Assembly: GCA_001873295.1 (NCBI GenBank) | Contig: MNYW01000122.1 | Location: 1 to 32,339 of the forward strand | Direction of reading: 5' to 3' | Source: Nitrospirae bacterium CG2_30_70_394 | GTDB taxonomy: Bacteria; CG2-30-53-67; CG2-30-70-394 | Length of the DNA: 32,339 nt | In this document: positions 1,888 to 31,151 of the stretch, in pieces | Position numbering within the stretch: position 1 is the first letter of the stretch | Layout of the letters: every line of letters begins with the position of its first letter | The notes under the pieces: model-generated | What the model was told of the DNA's origin: nothing | Seen by the model: only the letters and a program-made list of their open reading frames with translations | Database searches by the model: none | Position numbers and translations under genes: made by a program

Positions 1888-1937
1888 CTAGGAGTCTGTC
1901 GGATTTTGTCGATCGTCACGAGCGGAGTCAGCGTCAA
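1888..1937 (+). repeat. CTAG-ended dispersed element, copy 1 (truncated)
   Basis: The sequence begins CTAGGAGTCTGTCGGATTTT and continues GTCGATCGTCACGAG. It closely matches the left part of the copies at 19871 and 31081. On the minus strand it encodes the final residues and stop of uvrC. Only the first 35-45 bases resemble the family; the rest is uvrC coding sequence. Confidence 0.65.
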
Positions 1938-4483: not shown

Positions 4484-5050
4484 CGTTGAAGCGCGGGAGA
4501 ATCTCCTCCCCAGATCGGCCAACCGGCGGCGCGGCTGGAGCCAAAGAGGTGTGGCCCACCCCCGCCCCCCCAGGCGCGGCCGGGGCGAGGCAGCGCGGGG
4601 AGTGAGGCGACGGGCGAAGCGCACCAGCCAGCGGGGGTCTCTACGAGCGGTGCAGAGGGAGGGGGTGGCGACGCCGATGGGTGCGCCCGCCAGCCGTGGC
4701 ATCGCCTAGCGTTGGCGGAGTCTGAATGACAAAAGAGCGCTCCTCTGCGCCGGCGTCGCCTCGCGCCTTGGCGTTCGGCGGGAACCAGCCGGACGGAAGC
4801 CAGCGGCTCGGTGACGACCTGCGACCCTTCACGCCCTGCGCGCCTCCGGCATCACGGAGCCGGACGGAAGCCAGCGGCTCGGTGACGACCTCGGCCCACC
4901 GCGCAACGCCAAGGCGCGGAGCAGCGGGGAGACGAGACCTAGGAAGTAGAAGGTAGGCGGGGGGCGAAAGTGCCGCGGCTACGGTGACCCCCCCTGCCAC
5001 TCCCTACTCCCTCCCTCCTCCTTCCGACACCCACCCAACGCAGGCGGAGC
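4484..5050. other. long non-coding gap with repeats
   Basis: No convincing gene is seen on either strand between the response regulator and the small lipoprotein. The central part (4762-4918) holds a pair of 34-bp direct repeats inside a 14-bp inverted repeat, listed separately. The rest is GC-rich and featureless, apart from pyrimidine-rich runs near 4985-5020. Confidence 0.6.
4762..4918. repeat. inverted-repeat-bounded pair of 34-bp direct repeats
   Basis: CGCGCCTTGGCGTT at 4762-4775 and its exact reverse complement at 4905-4918 flank the unit. Inside, a 34-bp sequence beginning AGCCGGACGGAAGCCAGCGG occurs identically at 4787-4820 and 4858-4891, 71 bp apart. Neither strand gives a protein-like product. 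It could be a small non-autonomous element or a structured RNA; no known family is recognised. Confidence 0.75.
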
Positions 5051-5398: not shown

Positions 5399-5939
5399 CC
5401 TTTGTTGCCGGTGGTCTTGGTGCCACCCCCAACTCCCGGCGGGCGAACCCTCGGCAGGCCACGACCCGAGCGGGCGCGGTCTGCAATCTCCCCCGCGGTC
5501 GCGGCGGGAGTGGCGGCCGGCGTACCCGCGGGAAACGGTGCGAGCCCGCGAGAGTGGCCGCGCGCGCAGGCGCGGAGGTCGTGCCCATGGGGTCGCGGCA
5601 AAGGGCTTCGGCGGGGGCCGTGCGGGGGGACAAGCCCTGGCCTTCCAGCCCTCCCCTGACGGGCAGTCACCGCGCGGCGGCGCCGGGCCGCGGATCAGCC
5701 CCTCCCCTCCGCCTCGCCACGCGAGCGCCTCTTCCAGCCGACGCGGGTTCCCAGTCACCGCGCGGCGGCGCCGGGCCGCGGATCAGCCGCCTCTTCCGCC
5801 TCGCCACACCTCTGCGCGCGACCCGCCGTTGCTCGGGCGGTCGGCCTTGGTCCCGTGACCGCCTGGGAGCGGCTTTCGATCGGGAGTCACGTGCGTCCTG
5901 TCAGCCCCCTGCGCCGATCGCCGGCGGCAGGCGCGGGGC
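5399..5939. other. non-coding gap with a tandem-spaced repeat
   Basis: This 541-base GC-rich stretch lies between the lipoprotein and the end of pheT. No open frame has protein-like composition. It contains the repeat pair at 5664/5752 and, at 5839-5855, a 17-bp sequence (GGTCGGCCTTGGTCCCG) whose exact reverse complement recurs at 23390-23406 near the end of another dispersed element. Confidence 0.6.
5664..5807. repeat. 37-bp direct repeat pair, 88 bp apart
   Basis: A 37-bp sequence starting CAGTCACCGCGCGGCGGCGC is identical at 5664-5700 and 5752-5788. Similarity then continues imperfectly through CTCCGCCTCGCCAC-type sequence to about 5720 and 5807. The unit core is itself partly palindromic (GCGGCGGCGCCGGGCCGC). 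No coding potential is seen. Confidence 0.75.
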
Positions 5940-16024: not shown

Positions 16025-16136
16025 GGGCGACCGTGGCACACGCCCCGCAACCCCGACAAGCCGTTCCCACCCCGCTGCGCCCACCCCCTCCACCGCGCAC
16101 TCCCCCACCTTTCGTGTTCCGGCGCGGGTCGCTGAC

Positions 16137-16403
16137 CTCCGCCGCGCGCCCCGGCGTACCTCACGGATTGACGCCCACCCCCTCCCTACCCCGCCCTCCG
16201 TCGCGCGCCCCGGCGTACCGGCCGATCGGTCGACCCCGCGGAAGCGCGCCGTTGCCGGTGGAGACGGTGCGCCATGCGATCTCCGCACTGTCGACCCCGC
16301 GGAAGCGCGGTGTTGGGGCCCGCCCGCGCCCGCGCAACGCCGCGACTTATCCCGCGCGGCACGACTCCTCGGCTCCGGCCCGCCCGCGCCCGCGCAACGC
16401 CGC
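16137..16403. repeat. three successive repeat pairs with 59-61 bp spacing
   Basis: Pair 1: CGCGCGCCCCGGCGTACC at 16143-16160 and 16202-16219 (59 bp apart), extending to 24 bp with one mismatch. Pair 2: GTCGACCCCGCGGAAGCGCG at 16229-16248 and 16290-16309 (61 bp). Pair 3: a 27-bp sequence beginning GGCCCGCCCGCGCCCGCGCA at 16317-16343 and 16377-16403 (60 bp). Each sequence occurs exactly twice and differs from the other pairs, so this is not a simple tandem array. Confidence 0.8.
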
Positions 16404-23704: not shown

Positions 23705-24136
23705 ATGTTATGGCATGAGCTGACTGGACCCTGGGACCCATGGCGGGAGATGGAGCGGCTGCAGGATGAGGTGAGCCGCGCCTTCGGCACGCGCGGCGGA
23801 ATGAGCCGCGACTACCCGCCGGTGAACGTCTGGAGCGGCGACGAGGCGGTGGTGGTCACCGCGGAGGTGCCGGGAATCTTGCCGGCCGACCTCGACATCT
23901 CGGTGGTCAACGACACCCTCACCGTGCGCGGCGCGCGCAAGACGGAAGAGCTACAGAAGGGGGAGCGGTACCACCGCCGCGAGCGCGGCTACGGTGACTT
24001 CGTGCGCACCGTCCAACTCCCCTTCCGCATCGACGGCGAACACATGGAGGCGAAGGTGAGCAAAGGGGTGCTGGTGGTCCACCTGCGGCGGGCGGAGGAG
24101 GACCAGCGCAAGAGGATCACCGTGGCCACCGCCTGA
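23705..24136 (+). CDS. Hsp20 small heat-shock protein 1
   Basis: A 143-residue alpha-crystallin-domain holdase that binds unfolding proteins without ATP. A short N-terminal arm (WHELTGPWDPWREMERLQ) precedes the alpha-crystallin domain (about 40-130) with VNVWSGDEAVVVTAEVPG, the acidic and basic strand region ERYHRRERGYGDFVRTVQLP, and the GVL motif in KGVLVVHLRR. A terminal IxI/V-like motif (KRITV) supports oligomer contacts. First of three consecutive Hsp20 genes, 45 bases before the next. Confidence 0.93.
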   Translation: MLWHELTGPWDPWREMERLQDEVSRAFGTRGGMSRDYPPVNVWSGDEAVVVTAEVPGILPADLDISVVNDTLTVRGARKTEELQKGERYHRRERGYGDFVRTVQLPFRIDGEHMEAKVSKGVLVVHLRRAEEDQRKRITVATA

Positions 24137-24181
24137 GCACGCAACCCATCCACCCACTGTGCCCCCCTTGGAGGACTTGAG

Positions 24182-24586
24182 ATGACCCCGACAACCCAAA
24201 AGATGCAGACCCAAGAGACCGCCGCGCGTGCGGTGGTCGAAAAGAAGCAGGTGCACCGCCTCTACACGCCGCCGGCAGACGTCTTTGAAACCACCGAGAC
24301 CATCGAGGTGGTGACCGACATGCCGGGGGTGGACGAGGACTCCTTGGAGATCACCCTGGAGCGCAACGTCCTCACCCTCGACGGCCACACGGTGGTGAGC
24401 GACCCCCCGGGGATGGCCCTCACCTACTCGGAGTACGAGGTGGGCAACTACCACCGCGCCTTCACCCTCTCCGACGAGATCGCCCGTGAGGGCATCAAGG
24501 CGACAATGCGCAACGGCGTCCTCCACCTGAGCCTCCCGAAGGCGGGCCCGGCGAAGGCGCGGCGCATCGAGGTCCGGGGCGAGTAA
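24182..24586 (+). CDS. Hsp20 small heat-shock protein 2
   Basis: A 134-residue Hsp20. After an N-terminal arm with KKQVHRLYTPPADVFETTE comes the alpha-crystallin domain: IEVVTDMPGVDEDSLEITLE, the variable loop with DPPGMALTYSEYEVGNYHRA, and MRNGVLHLSLPKAG. It ends in RRIEVRGE, an IxV-type motif. The different N-terminal arm from its neighbours suggests a hetero-oligomer partner. The start at ATG 24182 follows a GGAGG sequence. It lies 44 bases before the third copy. Confidence 0.92.
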   Translation: MTPTTQKMQTQETAARAVVEKKQVHRLYTPPADVFETTETIEVVTDMPGVDEDSLEITLERNVLTLDGHTVVSDPPGMALTYSEYEVGNYHRAFTLSDEIAREGIKATMRNGVLHLSLPKAGPAKARRIEVRGE

Positions 24587-24630
24587 CCTTCCCCTTGCAC
24601 GCCGGACCGAAGAGAGAAAGGAGATCCACC

Positions 24631-25137
24631 ATGGCCCTTCGCGATCTGATTCCCAGGCGTCGCGCCACCCGTTCGCTGCCGGTGCGCCACGACGAGGTCT
24701 CTCCCATCCTCGCCCTGCACGACGAGATGGACCGTCTTTTTGACGACGTCTACCGCACCTTTGCGGGTGGGCCGCTGGACCGTTTCGCCCCCGCCACCCA
24801 GGGGTACATGCCACACATGGACGTGAGCGAGGACGACAAGAGCGTCGTGGTCACCGCCGAGCTTCCCGGCATGGAGGCCAGCGAGATCGACATCGCCCTC
24901 ACCGGCGACCTCCTCACCCTGAAGGGCGAGAAACGTGAGGAGCACGAGACAAAGGCGAAAGACTACGTCCGCACCGAGCGCACCTTCGGCGCCTTCCGCC
25001 GCACCCTCGAGCTGCCGTGCGAGGTGGAGGAGAAGGGGGCCACCGCCACCTTCAAGAAGGGGGTCTTGACCATCACCCTGCCGAAGAACGAGCAGGCGCG
25101 GGGCGCCAAACACCGCATCGAGGTGCAGGCCGCCTGA
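24631..25137 (+). CDS. Hsp20 small heat-shock protein 3
   Basis: A 168-residue Hsp20, the longest of the three. It has a basic start (MALRDLIPRRRATRSLPVRH), a helix ALHDEMDRLFDDVYRTF, then the alpha-crystallin domain with MDVSEDDKSVVVTAELPGME, the loop DYVRTERTFGAFRRTLELP, and KKGVLTITLPKN, ending HRIEVQAA with an IxV motif. The start at ATG 24631 follows AAAGGAGATCCACC. It ends the cluster before a strong hairpin shared with the convergent selenoprotein gene. Confidence 0.93.
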   Translation: MALRDLIPRRRATRSLPVRHDEVSPILALHDEMDRLFDDVYRTFAGGPLDRFAPATQGYMPHMDVSEDDKSVVVTAELPGMEASEIDIALTGDLLTLKGEKREEHETKAKDYVRTERTFGAFRRTLELPCEVEEKGATATFKKGVLTITLPKNEQARGAKHRIEVQAA

Positions 25138-25191: not shown

Positions 25192-25926
25192 TCACGGGAC
25201 AAAGGCGACCGGCTCCGTCGCCGGCGCGCGTGCACACAGGGCAAGGGTGGCCTCGAGGATCCTCCGCTGGAGGGCGGCGTCGTTCGGCGCGCCGAGGGGG
25301 AAGCCGAGCGGGTAGGGCACCGCCAGGCTGCGCGGCGGCGCCACCCGGCGGGTGATCTCCGGCAGGGCGGTCACCGAGCAGGTGACGATCCCACGCCCCT
25401 CCAACACCCCTTGAATCAGACCGACCGTCTGATGGCAAAAGGGTCAGACGGGGACGAGCAGGGCCACGTCCACCTGGTCCGCCACCAACAGCTCCGCCGC
25501 TGCCGGCGCGGTCTGGCGCAACAGCCGGGTCGGCGCGGTGATCGACCCCATGAAAGAGAGGTGGCGCGGCGCCACGGCGCCGATCCGCCCCCCATCCGCC
25601 AGCTCCCCCAGGCGATCGAGGGGGAAGGCGAGGTTGGCGTCTTGGGCGATCCCGGTGTGGTCGTAGGCGCGAGAGCGGTGGGTATCGATCAGCGTTGCCA
25701 CCGGCGTGGCGCGGTCGATCACCCGGAAGGAGAAGTCGCCCCCCTTCACCGCCGCGTCGAAGGGCGGCTGCCCCGGCGCCACCATTCCGGCGGTGGAAAG
25801 AATCGCCACCCGGCACTCGGCGAGGGGATGGGCCAGGCGCGCCCACGCGATGGGGCTCACCCGCCGCCACCGGTACAGGCGCAACGCCGTGCGCAGGGTG
25901 AAGGGAAGCTCGTCGAGGCGGTCCAT
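25192..25926 (-). CDS. GrdB-family selenoprotein with in-frame UGA (Sec)
   Basis: A 244-residue protein read through TGA at 25446-25444, which is residue 161. The sequence around it is LLVPV-U-PFCHQTVGLIQ, giving a UxxC redox motif. Upstream (MDRLDELPFTLRTAL; GDFSFRVIDRATPVATLIDT; AYDHTGIAQDANLAFPLDRL) and downstream (LPEITRRVAPPRSLAVPYPL, GFPLGAPND) both match the glycine/sarcosine/betaine reductase selenoprotein B family. The frame continues in phase to TGA 25194-25192. A SECIS-like hairpin starts directly after the UGA. The family as a whole is redox-active; the substrate of this short member is unknown. No Shine-Dalgarno is evident before ATG 25926. Ordinary termination would give a 160-residue product lacking the active site. 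Confidence 0.85.
25408..25443 (-). promoter_or_regulatory. bacterial SECIS element
   Basis: Directly after the UGA the RNA reads CCCUUUUGCC-AUCAGAC-GGUCG-GUCUGAU-UCAAGGG. The upper stem AUCAGAC/GUCUGAU is a perfect 7 bp and closes a GGUCG loop; the lower stem CCCUU/AAGGG is 5 bp across an internal loop. The apical loop begins 17 bases after the UGA and has G at its start, matching the spacing and loop features of bacterial SECIS elements recognised by SelB. Confidence 0.8.
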
Positions 25927-26438: not shown

Positions 26439-27566
26439 ATGGCCGAGGCGATCACCGTGGTCGGGCTCATGTGCGGCACCTCCCTGGATGGGGTGGACGT
26501 GGCGTGGGTGCGCGGCGGCCACCTGCTCCACTTCGCCACACGCCCCCTGTGGCCCCGCCTGCGCCGGCAGCTTGTGCCGCTTTTCGCCGGTGCGCCGGTC
26601 CCGGTGGAGGCGGTCGCCGCGGCCGAGGTGGCGGTGGCACGCTGCTTCGTCGACGCGGTGCGGTGTTCGGGCGTGCGCCTCCACCCCGATCTCGTCGCCG
26701 CCCACGGGATCACCGTCGCCCACCACCCCGAGCTGGGCTATTCGCTCCAACTCGCCGACCTCGCCACCCTCGGTCGCGGCCTTGGCTGCACCGCGGTGGG
26801 TTGCTTCCGCTCCGCCGACGTGGCCGCGGGCGGTCAAGGTGCCCCCCTCGCCCCCCTCTTCCACCGCCACCTCTTCGGAGACCAGACCGAGGCGCGCCTG
26901 GTCCTCAACCTCGGCGGCATCGCCAACCTGAGTGAGCTTTCCAGCAACGGCGCCGTGCGCGGCTACGACCTCGGCCCGTGCAACCTCCTCCTCGATCCCC
27001 TCTACCTACGCGCCACGGGCAAGGTGGGCTGCGATTGCGACGGCGCCCTCGCCGCCACCGGCCAGGTGGTGGAGGCGGTGATTCAGGCGCAGCTCGCCCA
27101 CCCCTTCCTTGGCCAGCCGCCCCCCAAGTCCACCGGCCGGGAAATCTTCGGCCCCGCCTTCGTCGAGGGCTTCGCCGCGGCCTGCACCGCAGCCGGCGCC
27201 ACCGCCGCCGGCGCCCTAGCCACCGCTTGTGGCTTTATCGCCGCCATGGTCGCCGGCCACCTCCGCCGCGCTCCCCAGCCGGCGGGTGGCTGGCGCCGCC
27301 TGATCCTGTGCGGTGGCGGGAGCCACAACACCACCCTGGTCCGAGCGATCGTTGCGGCGCTGGCACCGCTGGCGGTGGAGAGCAGTACCGCCCACGGGAT
27401 CGACCCGGACGCGGTGGAGGCGGTCGGCTTCGCCGACCTCGGCCTCGCCTGCGTAGCCGGCGCGGGCCAGGCGATGGAGGAGATCACCGGCGGCCCCGGC
27501 CAGCCCATCCTCGGCGAGATTCAACCGGGGCCGGGCTACCGCGACCTCCTCGACCGCCTGTCCTAA
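26439..27566 (+). CDS. anmK: anhydro-N-acetylmuramic acid kinase
   Basis: A 375-residue ASKHA-fold kinase that opens and phosphorylates 1,6-anhydro-MurNAc to MurNAc-6-phosphate during peptidoglycan recycling. Signatures are the N-terminal GLMCGTSLDGVDVAWV (8-23), a substrate region with HGITVAHHPELGYSLQ, LNLGGIANLSEL (about 156-167), GYDLGPCNLLLD (about 174-185), and LCGGGSHNTTLVRAI (about 289-303). Length is usual for the family. It appears monocistronic; no recycling partners are in the window. Confidence 0.95.
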   Translation: MAEAITVVGLMCGTSLDGVDVAWVRGGHLLHFATRPLWPRLRRQLVPLFAGAPVPVEAVAAAEVAVARCFVDAVRCSGVRLHPDLVAAHGITVAHHPELGYSLQLADLATLGRGLGCTAVGCFRSADVAAGGQGAPLAPLFHRHLFGDQTEARLVLNLGGIANLSELSSNGAVRGYDLGPCNLLLDPLYLRATGKVGCDCDGALAATGQVVEAVIQAQLAHPFLGQPPPKSTGREIFGPAFVEGFAAACTAAGATAAGALATACGFIAAMVAGHLRRAPQPAGGWRRLILCGGGSHNTTLVRAIVAALAPLAVESSTAHGIDPDAVEAVGFADLGLACVAGAGQAMEEITGGPGQPILGEIQPGPGYRDLLDRLS

Positions 27567-30825: not shown

Positions 30826-30914
30826 GACCCGCGCGCCGCGCGGCCACCGGGAAGACCGGCCTCGCCCCAAGGAGGGAGCCACCGAGGAACCGAGAGGCGA
30901 CCGCAATCTCTCTC

Positions 30915-31002
30915 CCTCCCCCCCCGCGCGCGCAGACCTGCCTGGTACGCCGTGGAGCGCATGGGGTGCGTTACCCCTCCCCCCCGCGCGCGCAGACCTG
31001 CC
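30915..31002. repeat. direct repeat pair, 60 bp apart
   Basis: A C-run followed by GCGCGCGCAGACCTGCC occurs at 30915-30942 and 30975-31002; the C-runs differ by one base (eight versus seven). Neither copy lies in a gene. The spacing matches pairs at 16137-16403. Confidence 0.7.
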
Positions 31003-31044: not shown

Positions 31045-31084
31045 CTCCCGAGCCAACACGACCCGCCAATCGCCGTTGCTCTAG
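31045..31084. repeat. 40-bp repeat, copy A
   Basis: A 40-bp sequence starting CTCCCGAGCCAACACGACCC and ending in CTAG shares 36 of 40 positions with copy B at 31967-32006. Copy B is the upstream region of the small membrane-protein gene. Weaker similarity continues left of copy A into what corresponds to that gene's first codons, so copy A may be the remnant of a duplicated gene start. Confidence 0.65.
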
Positions 31085-31151
31085 GAGGCTGTCGGACTTT
31101 GTCGATCGTCACGAAAAGCCGCAGGCTCGACAAAGTCCGACAGCCTCCTAG
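31081..31151. repeat. CTAG-ended perfect palindrome, copy 5
   Basis: A 71-bp unit: a 25-bp arm beginning CTAGGAGGCTGTCGGACTTT (31081-31105), a 21-base centre, and the exact reverse complement (31127-31151) ending in CTAG. The left half matches copies 1 and 3. It truncates a degraded PIN-domain gene on the minus strand. As RNA it would form a very stable hairpin on either strand. Confidence 0.85.

Follow-up and report, generated by a model that had tools for sequence, protein, structure and literature searches.

The closest described relatives of the protein analyzed here are PrdB, a subunit of D-proline reductase, and the B proteins of the glycine, sarcosine, and betaine reductases. PrdB-type selenoproteins have been catalogued in environmental surveys. 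In the available part of the Sargasso Sea survey, 42 Sec-containing PrdB-type selenoproteins with a UxxC motif constitute an abundant family (PMC1088965), and the available part of the GOS survey lists 235 Sec-containing and 110 Cys-containing PrdB-type proteins under pfam07355 (PMC2398784). A 'proline reductase' selenoprotein is recorded in Anaeromyxobacter dehalogenans and a Geobacter in the accessible text of PMC1794560. Two reviews, as far as their accessible text goes, treat D-proline reductase, TIGR04483, as one family (PMC9312934, PMC13188914). The reference list of PMC10838667 includes a work whose title states that the pyruvoyl group of PrdA and GrdE is formed from cysteine. The accessible text of the same paper describes FarB, a GrdB relative whose Sec is thought to attack the carbon–fluorine bond of a substrate bound with a partner subunit. 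A form of the family without a partner is not discussed in the accessible parts of PMC9751293 or PMC1914089, and no account of a UPxCxQ lineage lacking a partner was found within the literature searched.

Here we analyze a 32,339-nucleotide contig of Nitrospirae bacterium CG2_30_70_394 (the window). Judged from sequence, a gene in the window that a stop codon seems to interrupt very probably codes for a selenoenzyme belonging to a known family. We put at roughly 0.7 the probability that it is a functional selenoprotein gene, encoding a stand-alone PrdB-like Sec161/Cys164 oxidoreductase that acts without a pyruvoyl subunit.

Results

A conserved gene is interrupted by one in-frame UGA

Two minus-strand frames in the same phase are separated by a single TGA at codon 161 (25446-25444). 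The start ATG lies at 25926-25924 and the terminal TGA ends at 25192. When the internal TGA is read through, the product has 244 residues, and the residues around the site are LLVPV-U-PFCHQTVGLIQ. An earlier note on this DNA had placed the split frames, the TGA, and the 244-residue product correctly. The features of the gene are as follows.

25192..25926, minus strand, PrdB-like selenoprotein gene (translated with TGA as U; matches PF07355; below the cut-off of TIGR04483)
25444..25446, minus strand, in-frame UGA predicted to encode selenocysteine 161, the U of UPFC (UGA in 7/7 sequences read through; Cys, TGC, in L043 and L044)
25435..25437, minus strand, Cys164, candidate resolving cysteine of UxxC (Cys in 18/18 rows of the alignment)

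The TGA could instead be a real stop, leaving a 160-residue protein or a pseudogene, with the downstream frame open by chance in GC-rich DNA. Long open frames are common in the window, which contains 179 ORFs at least 70 aa long, so an open frame by itself is little proof. In addition, the Pfam GRDB match ends at residue 158. The evidence against a real stop comes from the homologues. Relatives are present in five of eight genomes of the phylum, including the genome analyzed here (G000), each with exactly one internal TGA; none was found in G001, G003, and G006. A scan of public genomes gave at least four loci. Two of these (L022 and L023, from MAGs titled Acidobacteria) carry TGA at the same codon, L024 reaches a contig edge just upstream of the Sec site, and L025, which lacks an in-frame N-terminal half, has Cys at the site within the motif NCPVCHQ, which matches that of the stand-alone type described below. 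UGA thus occupies the homologous codon in 7/7 readable sequences (window, G007, G002, G004, G005, L022, and L023), of which five are from phylum genomes and two are among the public-scan matches listed. In all seven, homology is present on both sides of the site and the same protein continues.

The window protein and the same-genus copy are 77% identical. Their amino acids differ at 40/160 codons before the UGA and at 17/83 codons after it, indicating that the stretch after the UGA is about as conserved as the stretch before it. The Sec position is occupied by Cys in two alphaproteobacterial homologues (L043 and L044) and in L025, in line with the suggestion of the earlier note that Cys forms be sought at residue 161, and the Cys homologues read straight through. 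That note had also named homologues ending naturally at the TGA as evidence against its reading; none exists among the homologues examined. Homology runs through to the C-terminus, indicating that the read-through frame is more than chance. With the Sec machinery also present (see below), we consider a real stop extremely improbable. A sequencing error at the TGA was dropped as an explanation because seven genomes share the same TGA.

The genome encodes the selenocysteine machinery

The genome assembly is 94.28% complete and comprises 182 contigs. It contains selB (330 bits, over the cut-off in a profile search), selA (E 4.4e-131), and selD (E 1.3e-105). Among 15 matches to Rfam RF01852, a single tRNA-Sec is over the cut-off, at 73.5 bits, and a tRNA-SeC with anticodon TCA (UCA) is also called by ARAGORN. 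All four genes that the earlier note had proposed to look for (selA, selB, selC, and selD) are therefore present, and the objection that the genome has no selenocysteine machinery fails. The SelD of this genome is a predicted selenoprotein itself, with one UGA in the context NCAG-U-ASK and a stable hairpin 3' of it (G000:C146:6607-7530, L042).

A SECIS-like hairpin follows the UGA

A hairpin is located immediately downstream of the in-frame UGA.

25415..25433, minus strand, SECIS-like hairpin, 7-bp stem AUCAGAC/GUCUGAU, loop GGUCG (pairing, covariation, recoding test)

The arms at 25433-25427 (AUCAGAC) and 25421-25415 (GUCUGAU) pair perfectly around the loop at 25426-25422 (GGUCG), and 17 nt separate the UGA from the loop. 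The loop presumably resembles that of E. coli fdhF. The hairpin claimed at this place exists, covaries at two pairs, and is rare in recoded sequences. In the alignment of the seven UGA sites, 93.9% of 49 cells are paired, and columns 15-31 (UA/CG) and 19-27 (AU/UA/GU) covary. Sliding the partner by 1-3 columns reduces pairing to 18-41%. Only 3/500 shufflings of the partners match the observed pairing, both-side-changed cells, and covariation score; two of the five covariation measures, the number of covarying pairs (2; 185/500) and of further pair types (4; 312/500), are not above the shuffles. When the codons are replaced synonymously (amino acids fixed, codon-usage-weighted), 13/5000 recodings have a stem as long at that place and 29/5000 fold as stably.

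The uninterrupted stem is shorter in some relatives (G004, 6 bp; G005, 5 bp; L022, 2 bp, with one internal mismatch), and for L022 alone the lowest-energy fold is a different one in which the hairpin is not formed. Loop positions 2-3 are G and U in all seven sequences, and they also lie inside a conserved Val codon. By eye, in the aligned DNA, three of the seven hairpin pairs are broken in each of the Cys homologues L043 and L044. A lower SECIS stem is predicted, yet it is broken in several rows and is not claimed here. Rfam gives no SECIS match at the locus at gathering thresholds.

The protein is PrdB-like

The read-through protein matches Pfam GRDB (PF07355) at 30.4 bits, over the cut-off of 22, placing it in the GRDB superfamily; the first half alone scores 32.3 bits. 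The best NCBIfam match is PrdB (TIGR04483; 143.4 bits, E 7.6e-42, residues 26-237), which lies below the 300-bit equivalog cut-off. The same model gives 380-453 bits to three canonical PrdB proteins taken from plasmid records, 111-145 bits to four other Sec proteins of the window's type, 104-139 bits to matches in a six-frame genome search, and 83-87 bits to the two alphaproteobacterial Cys homologues. The sarcosine, betaine, and glycine reductase B models match with their C-terminal halves only, at 33-43 bits versus cut-offs of 65-800. Specifically, only profile positions 207-421 of the 431-435 positions of the GrdB models are matched, and the protein is not a full-length GrdB of ~430 residues.

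Judged by these profile matches, the window protein is a member of the already catalogued PrdB-type selenoprotein family and not a novel short GrdB. The earlier assignment to the GrdB family thus holds at the level of the superfamily, but the nearest described family is PrdB. Likewise, the protein is indeed much shorter than GrdB, as had been remarked, but ~240 residues is normal for PrdB, whose model has 238 positions, and this size explains the difference.

An alignment of 18 proteins separates two groups by motif. [U/C]PxCxQ occurs in all nine stand-alone proteins (seven Sec and two Cys), and HGG[YF]D is absent from every one of them. All nine complex-type proteins (seven PrdB and two GrdF) have both [U/C]GTCxR and HGG[YF]D; the UGTCxR reference motif was derived from these PrdB and GrdF rows. 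The window protein has UPFCHQ and not the UGTCxR of D-proline reductase. A maximum-likelihood tree, from which the partial homologue L025 was excluded, places the stand-alone Sec and Cys homologues opposite PrdB and GrdF with support 89/95, a value below the strict mark of the program. Many inner forks of this tree are weak, the branch leading to GrdF is long, and the composition of one Cys row is unusual. A modest conclusion is that the branch of the window protein belongs with neither the D-proline reductases nor the glycine reductases.

Solved structures gave no match to the single protein by sequence, and the one structure matched by the profile, a designed protein over 31 residues (E 5.2e-6), was taken as chance. 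Phage records gave no match to the protein, and viral contigs gave 16 pattern matches and no relatives.

The pyruvoyl partner is missing

If the window protein served as PrdB in a true D-proline reductase, its best family match (TIGR04483, E 7.6e-42), its length, and its UxxC spacing would all be as expected. However, the score of 143 bits is far from the 300-bit cut-off and from the 380-453 bits of canonical PrdB, and the protein lacks GTCxR, HGG[YF]D, and MGGGG. Moreover, PrdA (TIGR04480) is encoded in none of five genomes with the gene (G000, G007, G002, G004, and G005), including that of the window, although the same search was positive in the controls W01 and W02. PF09338 was likewise found in none of ten genomes or replicons with the window's type (the same five, G008-G010, W04, and W05). 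L022, L023, and the partial homologue L025 come from G008, G009, and G010, respectively, and W04 and W05 are Haematobacter and Roseomonas records of one replicon each; the assembly of L024 was left out. In contrast, PF09338 is present in 7/7 records searched with canonical PrdB (W01-W03 and W06-W09), which are seven out of 22 PrdB-type plasmid records.

The observation in the earlier note that no reductase complex partners accompany the gene is therefore borne out for PrdA and PF09338 in the genome and its four relatives. Since the genome is 94% complete and in 182 contigs, this genome taken alone could, strictly speaking, have a partner gene that the assembly misses. The window also encodes a haem-copper oxidase subunit (PF00115), which suggests oxygen respiration and argues further against a D-proline reductase. 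On motif, score, and gene content, the window protein is hardly a D-proline reductase subunit, and we regard this identity as very unlikely.

Genomic surroundings

The selenoprotein gene is solitary, flanked by three Hsp20 genes on one side and by anmK on the other. Its two neighbors, both outside the system, are as follows.

24595..25137, plus strand, Hsp20, convergent neighbor (PF00011; adjoins the gene in the same-genus genome too)
26439..27566, plus strand, anmK, divergent neighbor (PF03702)

Hsp20, anmK, and the M16 peptidases are retained near the gene in the genome of the same genus. The three Hsp20 genes are consecutive (window 23705-25137), and this arrangement is also kept there. Among six neighborhoods compared, the Hsp20 order occurs in the same genus only; the other five, one of them just 3.6 kb long, are without it. 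The position alone beside heat-shock genes had been noticed before and is correct, but it gives no functional hint, being confined to the same genus among the six. L022 is flanked by genes for seryl-tRNA synthetase and a thioredoxin-domain protein, and L023 by genes for Fur, an aldolase, and a permease. No neighbor is common to all the neighborhoods compared, and none points to a substrate.

Further neighbors were seen in single lineages. In G004, a DUF1638 gene follows the PrdB-like gene, and a CMD-domain (AhpD-like) gene and a TetR gene lie upstream in G004 and G005 (CMD by homology in G005); the coordinates for these DUF1638, CMD, and TetR neighbors are L037:8436-9002, L037:12474-13013, and L038:10623-11162. 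The Haematobacter Cys homologue adjoins a cobalamin synthesis cluster (L043:8850-16654), and the Roseomonas Cys homologue adjoins a gene for the protein adenylyltransferase SelO (L044:8824-10296).

Two kinds of repeat were observed in the window. A REP-like repeat, TAGGAGNCTGTCGGANTTTGTCGA, occurs at 1889-1912 (+), 31082-31105 (+), and 31127-31150 (-). Genome-wide it has 29 sites with at most two mismatches, versus none for the reversed control, and it sometimes forms close inverted pairs (31082/31127 in the window; C174 5015/5171; C43 3368/3522). Short direct duplications of 25-37 nt, with start-to-start distances of 59-88 nt, occur at 5664-5788, 4787-4891, 16136-16403, and 30914-31002, seemingly mostly between genes according to the ORF list.

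Discussion

Proposed function

The following account of Sec insertion, of the redox cycle and its reductant, and of the class of substrate is inferred. SelB and tRNA-Sec would decode the UGA, aided by the hairpin just downstream. The product would be a single-domain PrdB-like protein with the redox motif Sec161-Pro-Phe-Cys164. In the absence of a pyruvoyl subunit (PrdA/GrdE), the protein would not be expected to cleave D-proline or glycine reductively via a Schiff base, and the UxxC pair would be left to act. The selenolate would therefore be expected to attack an electrophilic substrate or a disulfide, and Cys164 would resolve the adduct to give a selenenylsulfide, which thioredoxin or another thiol could re-reduce.

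In an AlphaFold model (4 sequences) of moderate confidence (pLDDT 69.6), Sec161 is positioned between strand 154-158 and helix 164-177. Reactive thiols and selenols commonly sit at such a strand–helix junction, for example in many thiol oxidoreductases. In a Foldseek search of the PDB with the model, no structure reached E 0.001, and the best match, a ribose-5-phosphate isomerase (E 0.033, query TM 0.29), was taken as uninformative.

Instead of thiol–disulfide exchange, the protein might carry out a stand-alone reductive cleavage of a carbon–heteroatom bond, in the way that FarB has been suggested to act on fluoroacetate. The protein shares a superfamily with GrdB, and for FarB, a relative of GrdB, the accessible text of PMC10838667 describes a presumed attack on a carbon–fluorine bond via Sec. 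However, FarB shares an operon with its partner FarE, whereas no partner was found for the window protein, and no substrate-specific neighbor is common between lineages. We consider this chemistry possible but rather unlikely, and keep to the oxidoreductase with the Sec161/Cys164 pair as the preferred reading.

Comparison with known systems

The UPxCxQ proteins may constitute an unnamed Sec/Cys family without a pyruvoyl partner. If so, part of the 'PrdB' of the ocean surveys would be misnamed and would have another, undiscovered substrate; we lean slightly towards this view. Annotation may label UPxCxQ-type proteins 'proline reductase', although the partner and the motif of that enzyme are missing, or may truncate them at the UGA. 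Should the split hold in a wide sample, part of an abundant survey selenoprotein family would have no known function. For finding such a function, a 244-residue protein that is encoded by a single gene and has Cys homologues is convenient to work with.

The survey entries named 'PrdB' or 'proline reductase' share UxxC, Sec, and PF07355 (GOS table) with the window protein, a likeness taken from the descriptions in the available parts of these sources and not from the UPxCxQ or UGTCxR motif. GrdB, GrdF, and GrdH (PF07355, TIGR01917/8, NF040794/5) are homologous to it in their C-terminal half, with Sec at the same column, but the window protein lacks the ~200-residue N-terminal half, and no GrdE-type partner was found. 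PrdB (TIGR04483) is closer: like the window protein, it is a single-domain protein of ~240 residues with UxxC and with Sec or Cys in the corresponding column, and three PrdB rows are 30-36% identical to the window protein. In contrast to PrdB, the window protein has UPxCxQ and not UGTCxR, is without HGG[YF]D and MGGGG, and has no PrdA that could be found. The Cys form of Haematobacter and Roseomonas, named 'glycine/sarcosine/betaine reductase selenoprotein B family protein' by NCBI, differs in having Cys for Sec, ~60 more residues, a broken hairpin, and F-H-G in place of F-M-G. It is nevertheless, like the window protein, stand-alone, with CPxCxQ and no PF09338 on the same replicon, and the tree places the two together.
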